DNA from: Bdellovibrionales bacterium
Lineage (GTDB): Bacteria; Bdellovibrionota; Bdellovibrionia; Bdellovibrionales; Bdellovibrionaceae
Length of the DNA stretch: 64,000 bases
Assembly: GCA_018266295.1 (NCBI GenBank)
Contig: JAFEAQ010000006.1
Coordinates: 248,001 to 312,000 of the forward strand
Direction: 5' to 3'
Position numbers and translations under genes: made by a program. Numbering within the stretch: the stretch's first letter is position 1; every line of letters starts with the position of its first letter. The notes under the pieces were generated by a model. The model did not search any database. It had not been told where the DNA came from and saw only the letters and a program-made list of their open reading frames with translations. Below, one piece after another: positions 50,521 through 52,236 of the stretch.

Positions 50521-50943
50521 ATGGGACACAAAATGTCTTTAAGCACAGAAGAGATTCAGGCCAAGCTCCTTGCGGCTGGCGTGCAGCCGACGCTGCAAAG
50601 AATCGCTATCTGTAAATACGTTTTGTGCGAAGCGGACCACCCGACGGCTGAACAAGTTAAAGAGTGGGCCGAAAAGAACCTTGAGAAAATCAGTCAAGCA
50701 ACGGTGTACAACACACTGAACACTTTGGTGGATGCGGGACTGTTGCGCGTTTTCAAGTTCCCTCATTCAGAGAAGGTCATCTACGACAACAACGTGCATG
50801 ATCACTATCATTTCCTTGATGAAAACTCGGGGCATCTTTACGATATCGAACCAAAGGATGTCTCTGTTGAGATGGAAGTCCCAGCGAAGTTCATCGTGAA
50901 TTCTATGGAAATCGTTCTTAAAGGCCAATTAAAGGCCAACTAA
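50521..50943 (+). CDS. perR: Fur-family peroxide regulator (PerR-like)
   Basis: A 140-residue repressor. The N-terminal winged helix is typical (LQRIAICKYV, SQATVYNTLNTLVDAGLLR). Regulatory metal ligands match PerR: H40, D89, H95, H97 (HDHYHF) and D108. The two CxxC pairs that hold structural zinc in most Fur/PerR proteins are absent. GGGGGA at 50506 fits the ATG at 50521. Upstream operators imply autoregulation, and ahpC follows by 17 bases. Fur or Zur roles are less likely given the ahpCD partners. Confidence 0.88.
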   Translation: MGHKMSLSTEEIQAKLLAAGVQPTLQRIAICKYVLCEADHPTAEQVKEWAEKNLEKISQATVYNTLNTLVDAGLLRVFKFPHSEKVIYDNNVHDHYHFLDENSGHLYDIEPKDVSVEMEVPAKFIVNSMEIVLKGQLKAN

Positions 50944-50960: not shown

Positions 50961-51494
50961 ATGTTAGGTATCGGCGAAAAATTCCCAGAGTTTAAATTGC
51001 AAGCCTGTGTTTCTCGTGAAAAAGGTAAAGAGTTCGCAGAAATCAGCAACGCAAATTTCAAAGGCTCTTGGGCTGTTATGTTCTTCTGGCCTCTCGATTT
51101 CACTTTCGTATGCCCTACTGAAATCGCTGAGTTCAACAAAGCTCACAAAGATTTCAATGCTCGTGAAGCGAAATTGTTTGGCTTGAGCGCGGACTCTCAC
51201 TTCACACACTTGGCTTGGCGTGAAAACCATGCTGATTTGAAAGACCTTCAATTCCCAATGATCGCAGACTACAACAAGTCTTTGACTCACACTTTGGGTA
51301 TTGCTTCTAAAGAAAACGGCGCTCCTTTGCGTGCAACTTACATCGTGGACCCAGAAGGTATCATCCGTTGGGTTTCTGTGAACGACTTGTCTGTAGGTCG
51401 TAACGTAAAAGAAGTAGTACGTACTTTGGATGCTTTGCAAACAGACGAACTTTGCCCATGCAACTGGGAAAAAGGCCAAAAAACTCTCGGCTAA
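50961..51494 (+). CDS. ahpC: Alkyl hydroperoxide reductase AhpC (peroxiredoxin)
   Basis: A 177-residue two-Cys-type peroxiredoxin that reduces H2O2 and organic peroxides. The peroxidatic cysteine is C51 (TFVCPTEI). The C-terminus carries CPC (C165, C167), the three-cysteine layout known from mycobacterial AhpC, which is recycled by AhpD rather than AhpF. AAGGAG precedes the start. Uniform, favoured codons suggest high expression. A terminator within a large inverted repeat follows. Confidence 0.96.
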   Translation: MLGIGEKFPEFKLQACVSREKGKEFAEISNANFKGSWAVMFFWPLDFTFVCPTEIAEFNKAHKDFNAREAKLFGLSADSHFTHLAWRENHADLKDLQFPMIADYNKSLTHTLGIASKENGAPLRATYIVDPEGIIRWVSVNDLSVGRNVKEVVRTLDALQTDELCPCNWEKGQKTLG

Positions 51495-51501
51495 TCCCGA
51501 G

Positions 51502-51657
51502 AAGGTACCAGGTCGCTTTTCAGAATTGACTTCCGAAAAGCGGATCTGGTCCGCATAAGTTTCAACGAAAACCGAATAGGCTCTGGTGACTTTTCTTTGA
51601 AAAGCCTCAGGGCCATTTTTTTAAAGGTGTCAATTCTGAAAAGCGACCTGGTACCTT
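51502..51657. repeat. Inverted-repeat cassette between ahpC and ahpD
   Basis: Two 29-base arms (51502-51530 and 51629-51657) are perfect inverted copies, with GGTACC near the outer ends. The 98-base core contains a GCGGA/TCCGC hairpin (51540-51554) and a terminator-like hairpin. It looks like a small mobile element (MITE-like) or a structured regulatory element. No target-site duplication is evident. Confidence 0.85.
51579..51622 (+). terminator. Terminator-like hairpin inside the cassette
   Basis: GGCTCTG/CAGGGCC outside and CTTTTC/GAAAAG inside form a long hairpin, followed by ATTTTTTT. It would separate ahpC from ahpD transcription unless read through. Confidence 0.65.
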
Positions 51658-51672
51658 TTAAGGAGTTATGTA

Positions 51673-52236
51673 ATGAATAACATCAATGAAAAAGTGGATG
51701 CGTTTCTTGAGAGCAACTACCCGAATGCAACAACCACGATCTATCGTGACCTTTCTTTGAACTTTAAAAAAGTATTGGAAGATTCCCCTCTGGAGCCGCA
51801 AGAACGTTTTATGAACTTGCTTTCAATCGCGGTCGCACTTGAGAACAAAGAGATGGTGGCACTTGCTAAGTCTGTATTGACTGAACTTGGCACGGCTACT
51901 GAAGTGATCCAAGAAGCGGCGGAAATCGCCGGCATCATGGGCATGAATAACGTCTACTACAAATTCAAATCATTCTTGCCACCGGAAGTTGCGGCGGCTG
52001 ATTACACTCGCGCAGGTCTTCGTATGAACTCATTGGGAAAACCAATCAGTGGCAAAAAAGATTTCGAAATGATGGCGCTGTCTGTGTCTATCGTAAATGC
52101 TTGCCCGGTGTGCGTTGCAAGCCACGAAAAAGCGGTTCGCAGTCATGACGTGTCTGCTGATAAAGTTCACGATCTTGCCCGCCTTGCTGCCGTGGCAAAA
52201 GGTCTGACAAGCTTGAAAAAAGCAATGACGCTTTAA
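51673..52236 (+). CDS. ahpD: Alkylhydroperoxidase AhpD
   Basis: A 187-residue carboxymuconolactone decarboxylase-fold thiol protein that hands electrons to AhpC. The active site ACPVCVASH has C144, C147 and H151, the CxxC-xxxH layout of AhpD. AAGGAG (51659-51664) sets the ATG and lies just outside the inverted repeat. It matches the CPC-type AhpC upstream. A terminator follows at 52259-52296. Confidence 0.95.
   Translation: MNNINEKVDAFLESNYPNATTTIYRDLSLNFKKVLEDSPLEPQERFMNLLSIAVALENKEMVALAKSVLTELGTATEVIQEAAEIAGIMGMNNVYYKFKSFLPPEVAAADYTRAGLRMNSLGKPISGKKDFEMMALSVSIVNACPVCVASHEKAVRSHDVSADKVHDLARLAAVAKGLTSLKKAMTL

Follow-up and report, generated by a model that had tools for sequence, protein, structure and literature searches.

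Probable head-to-head dimer of a dispersed REP/TIR-type repeat between an ahpC-like and an ahpD-like gene in a Bdellovibrionales bacterium

The stretch of DNA analyzed here (64 kb, referred to as the window) comes from a Bdellovibrionales bacterium and carries, on one strand, a Fur/PerR-family regulator gene, an ahpC-like gene, and an ahpD-like gene. Two inverted arms enclosing a core, together named the cassette, lie between the last two genes, and the features of the locus are as follows.

50521-50943, + strand, Fur/PerR-family regulator gene upstream of ahpC (Pfam FUR, 67.5 bits)
50961-51494, + strand, ahpC-like peroxiredoxin gene (AhpC-TSA, 123.6 bits), with the stop codon TAA at 51492-51494
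51502-51530, + strand, arm 1, a REP/TIR-type repeat, AAGGTACCAGGTCGCTTTTCAGAATTGAC, with its outer end facing ahpC and a multicopy 17-base centre
51535-51552, - strand, degenerate local partner of arm 1, GAAAAGCGGATCTGGTCC, predicted to pair with arm 1
51579-51622, + strand, intrinsic-terminator-like hairpin outside the repeat, with a stem (51579-51614) followed by an A and seven T (51616-51622)
51629-51657, - strand, arm 2, an inverted copy of the arm 1 repeat, adjoining the ahpD ribosome site
51660-51665, + strand, ahpD ribosome-binding site AAGGAG, predicted to be mostly paired with arm 1 present or absent
51673-52236, + strand, ahpD-like alkylhydroperoxidase gene (TIGR00778 AhpD core domain, 34 bits, above the cut-off of 27.8)

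Three other models score below their cut-offs on these genes, namely PerRB of NCBIfam on the regulator gene (174.8 bits, cut-off 250), AhpC of NCBIfam on the ahpC-like gene (161 bits, cut-off 272), and TIGR00777 on the ahpD-like gene (96 bits, cut-off 191.95).

The original prediction described perfect arms of 29 bases, a core with a terminator-like hairpin and another stem, and an end two bases before the ahpD ribosome site, and the sequence agrees on all of these. The 29-nt arms are exact reverse complements of each other, separated by a core of 98 nt that contains, beside the terminator-like hairpin, the second stem GCGGATCTGGTCCGC, and 2 nt separate the end of arm 2 from AAGGAG. A longer inverted repeat of 36 nt matches at 92% (51495-51530 and 51629-51664). 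In arm 1, GGTACC begins 9 nt beyond the ahpC stop. The cassette folds at -87.2 kcal/mol, compared with -43.7 kcal/mol for shuffled sequences (z -9.8), and none of the 200 shuffles folded as well. No Rfam family matched the cassette at threshold, and the long stem gave only chance matches to miRNA precursors. The degenerate third half-repeat at 51535-51552 suggests a decayed remnant of an older palindromic unit.

A genome-wide search for the arm sequence, as proposed with the original prediction, excludes an absence of further copies. The 17-base centre GGTACCAGGTCGCTTTT has 36 copies in the 4.22-Mb genome, 33 of them exact and three with one mismatch, and a reversed control pattern gave no matches in the same sequence; the window holds only arms 1 and 2. 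The repeat consensus is AAGGTACCAGGTCGCTTTTC, in which the centre is nearly constant and the flanking bases vary. Two subfamilies diverge just inside the arm, ...CTTTTC[A/G]GAATTGAC and ...CTTTTCCGG, and the window arms belong to the former. Eight sites, including that of the window, carry two copies each, and in every pair the copies stand head to head, AAAAGG facing outward. Seven of these pairs span 100-220 bp, and the eighth encloses a gene, with 735 bp from copy to copy. The window core has no second copy anywhere in the genome and the other pairs enclose cores unrelated to it at varying spacing, some of them with terminator-like hairpins of their own; therefore, what is repeated in this genome is the arm, not the whole cassette. 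A single repeat unit folds at only -2.0 kcal/mol and lacks the tetranucleotide GTAG. A possible C-terminal tag, PKRYQVAFRN*, read through the CCGAAAAGG copies was rejected as spurious, as the open reading frames are short and one crosses an apparent tRNA gene.

The copies at C11:91224 and C11:91959 bracket a gene (C11:91274-91942; L107 1775-2446) that encodes a protein of 223 aa. This protein passes the Pfam Y1_Tnp cut-off of 23 with 30.5 bits. Its best NCBIfam match is the REP-associated tyrosine transposase, at 66.7 bits and below the cut-off of 80, and its sole PDB match is the E. coli TnpA-REP structure 4er8 (4.3e-07). The HuH motif (H69, H71) and Tyr128 are invariant in the alignment of its relatives. 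Judged from sequence, this RAYT-like Y1/HuH transposase is the probable mobilizing enzyme of the repeat, and we infer that such an enzyme dispersed the copies. A second Y1_Tnp protein of ~191 aa is encoded on a ~1-kb repeat with six copies that are roughly 82-92% identical (L101 and L108-L112, in G000 C22, C10, C14, and C15). The CCGG subfamily of the repeat lies upstream of this second gene in five of the six copies, and the ~1-kb repeat is possibly an IS-like element that is still mobile.

Across the order, the flanking inverted repeats exceeded every shuffle at 58 of 64 sampled RAYT loci, and are mostly built on GGTACC, GGTGCC, or similar sequences. Each lineage has a dispersed version of its own, GGTACCAGTTCCCTTTT in genome G021, GGTACCAGCTCACTTTT in G027, and in G054 a 17-mer identical to that of the window genome, and the RAYT genes of these three genomes are flanked by the version of their own genome. 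Among the named genomes scanned, a set that possibly leaves out the window genome's own records, the exact 21-mer is shared by just one other, the Bdellovibrionota MAG KLAP26 (G054). There the repeats form dimers whose arms lie 120-122 bp from each other around similar palindromic cores (L231-L246 and L113-L118), which by their sequence are REPIN-like units of the 17-base repeat. The RAYT at the repeat in G054 is only ~46% identical to that of the window genome. Compact palindromes of ~53 bp, made from GGTACCAGTTCCCTTTT with short variable loops, are found in G021 (L207-L220); they are mostly intergenic and often provide a stop codon. Taken as a whole, the cassette is very probably a head-to-head dimer of a dispersed 22-30 bp repeat of REP/TIR type that belongs with a RAYT ('TIRtron') family.

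The terminator-like hairpin of the core (-17.9 kcal/mol, z -2.9) was missed by a consensus terminator scan, probably because its stem is interrupted. Among 17 relatives with the ahpC-ahpD neighbourhood, 13 have structure at z <= -2 in the 100 bases after ahpC; these structures are unrelated in sequence and without the window arms, and several are classic terminators. The presence of unrelated hairpins after ahpC in most relatives suggests that the terminator at the 3' end of ahpC is probably older than the repeats. An extra gene lies between ahpC and ahpD in 4 of the 17 loci; judged by eye, a Dps/ferritin-like gene occupies this place in L120, L122, L124, and L125.

Stop codons are frequent at the edges of the repeats, as counted from simply called ORFs (80 or 100 aa) rather than curated genes. 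In the window genome, among copies of the CTAAAAGG/ATAAAAGG type in which a stop codon ends at position -3 from GGTACC, this codon is the stop of an ORF of at least 175 aa in 10 of 10; were insertion possible at every non-coding CTAA of the window, 6 of the 38 sites would fall on stops. A stop codon lies near the element edge in 68 of 111 copies from four genomes (G000, G021, G027, and G054) and at 56 of 116 RAYT-element edges in the order (L137-L200), and both edges lie near a stop in 26 of 58 RAYT elements. The registers peak exactly at TA|GG, TAA|GG, and TAAAA|GG, and the sequence at 56 of 95 element edges in the order terminates in TA or TAA. We tentatively propose that the RAYT/TIR family of this order inserts, or is retained, at stop codons, where the AAGG or GG edge would rebuild TAA or TAG at the TA of the stop, and that the ahpC-ahpD pair would be an intra-operon variant, although on balance we hold this to be less likely than not. 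If true, insertion between convergent genes would spare both proteins, and the exact register seen in many genera offers a testable idea of how mobile repeats persist in dense genomes without gene breakage. The window pair itself lies outside the exact stop-codon register. The ahpC stop differs from the precise TAA|AAGG junctions found at other copies; therefore, the pair may be old or rearranged. Judged from the window copy alone, no clear target-site duplication is apparent.

The folding of the transcript bears on a regulatory reading, in which the cassette is an evolved RNA switch whose paired arms loop out the terminator and permit read-through to ahpD. Such a switch was the mechanism of the original prediction, with paired arms meaning read-through and unpaired arms meaning a stop before ahpD. 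We calculated partition functions for four transcripts, with 3' ends at 51621, 51640, 51660, and 51740. Arm 1 does have two alternative partners that are exchanged as transcription proceeds: it pairs with 51535-51552 with a probability of 0.94 in the transcript to 51621, and when the transcript includes arm 2 this pairing drops to 0 and arm 1 pairs with arm 2 instead, at 0.97. However, the terminator stem has a probability of 0.977 at all four transcript lengths, whether the arms are paired or not, and no alternative fold that disrupts the terminator, as an attenuator would have, appeared at any of them. Arm 2 is transcribed later than the terminator and is present only in RNA whose polymerase has already passed it, and deletion of arm 1 in silico leaves the accessibility of the ahpD ribosome site nearly the same. 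The constant terminator probability and the late synthesis of arm 2 therefore leave the arm-switch model unsupported, and we regard it as highly unlikely. In these predicted folds the arms reshape the RNA but do not turn the terminator on or off, which removes an attractive model from this stress operon.

Three other origins of the cassette were weighed. The suggestion that it is a MITE adopted as a control element survives in part: the arms are a mobile-type repeat with genomic copies, whereas a MITE that moved as a whole is contradicted by the unique core. A joint arrival of arms, core, and terminator as a single unit that now regulates ahpD would agree with the perfect arms from one subfamily, and the fixed-spacing KLAP26 dimers with similar cores indicate that movement as a unit exists in that genome. 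Yet the conserved repeated body between terminal inverted repeats that marks a MITE is absent in the window genome, where other pairs differ from this one in core and spacing, and the relatives have a hairpin of their own at the equivalent place without arms; we therefore find a MITE unit unlikely. The near-constancy of the centre beside varying adjoining bases and the marked bias of the copies towards stop codons and the 3' ends of genes would also be expected of host protein-binding or chromosome-organizing sites under selection, with only a secondary link to a transposase. This explanation seems to us improbable, as each lineage's version differs and flanks that lineage's own RAYT genes, and the exact 21-mer is confined to a single named genome of the searched set. 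The head-to-head arms, which complete elements also have at a distance of ~735 bp, would be explained if a full RAYT element once lay between ahpC and ahpD and lost its gene by internal deletion; but the core has no transposase-like similarity, carries a terminator, and gave no match to the C11 RAYT locus, and we give this origin little credence.

The preferred account, which we hold to be likely as a whole, is that a dimer of the repeat settled around an older terminator at the 3' end of ahpC, with a cognate RAYT-like enzyme elsewhere in the genome. Two copies would have been placed on either side of the terminator, one after the ahpC stop and one before the ahpD ribosome site, and we infer that the two arms were inserted independently. 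Weighed against this account were the 36 copies, a low number for classical REPs, the absent GTAG tag, and the ahpC stop that departs from the precise junctions of other copies. On the RNA, the terminator would first attenuate transcription, and the RNA that reads through would then fold into a stem of ~30 bp. This stem may shield the 3' end of ahpC or be cut by an enzyme of RNase III type, and either outcome would uncouple the expression of ahpC and ahpD. From the modelled folds, a role of the arms in RNA processing or stability is plausible, and the chance that the cassette measurably affects RNA level or processing is, in our estimate, a little under even. The analysis thus identifies a repeat family and its probable mobilizing enzyme in a Bdellovibrionota-related lineage. 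Bdellovibrio is unmentioned in the REP, RAYT, and TIRtron literature that we searched, and word searches of the literature gave nothing relevant on REPs or repetitive palindromes in Bdellovibrio.

Several known systems resemble the repeat described here, but there are differences in tag, hairpin, abundance, and spacing. In gammaproteobacterial REP/BIME systems with RAYT (PMC2817692), as here, inverted pairs lie at gene 3' ends, the RAYT gene lies between inverted copies, and the versions co-vary between species. Unlike these, the window repeat has GTAC at a similar place instead of GTAG, its individual hairpin is weak, and there are 18-36 copies here compared with more than 100. A classical GTAG REP ends a stable hairpin with GTAG (GTGG), whereas the window repeat lacks GTAG and folds weakly. 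REPINs (Bertels and Rainey 2011, PMC3116915) are inverted doublets of a RAYT-associated repeat, as found here, and the fixed-spacing dimers of G021 and KLAP26 resemble them; the doublets of the window genome differ from REPINs in that their spacing varies and their cores are unrelated. Liang et al. (2015, as cited in PMC12306157) dealt with E. coli REP sequences no more than 15 nt from a stop codon, and arm 1 is also this close to the ahpC stop, with a weaker individual hairpin than those REPs. The termini of GTAG REPs often supply TAG stops (Di Nocera et al.); the stop-codon principle is thus already known, and the GGTACC-type elements seem more regular in it.

TIRtrons (TIRYT; Di Nocera et al. 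2013, PMC3733652, where a word search of the main text finds no Bdellovibrio) share with the present elements an IS200-like tyrosine transposase and inverted flanking repeats without GTAG, and the TIR families are likewise moderately abundant dispersed repeats found as singles and dimers. The majority TIR motif GGGGWSAS differs from the window consensus; it is common to some published TIRs, and it is no strict requirement because others are unrelated to it (PMC3733652). TIRtron transposases belong to subclass 2.1 and have a C-terminal HTH domain (PMC6006769). Because the GTAG tag and the usual abundance of GTAG REPs are missing, the TIRtron/TIR concept is a better fit than the classical REPs, and the window-genome repeat is not a MITE; the TIRtron features that we found are a Y1 gene between inverted repeats, the HuH motif with its tyrosine, and copies dispersed as singles and dimers.
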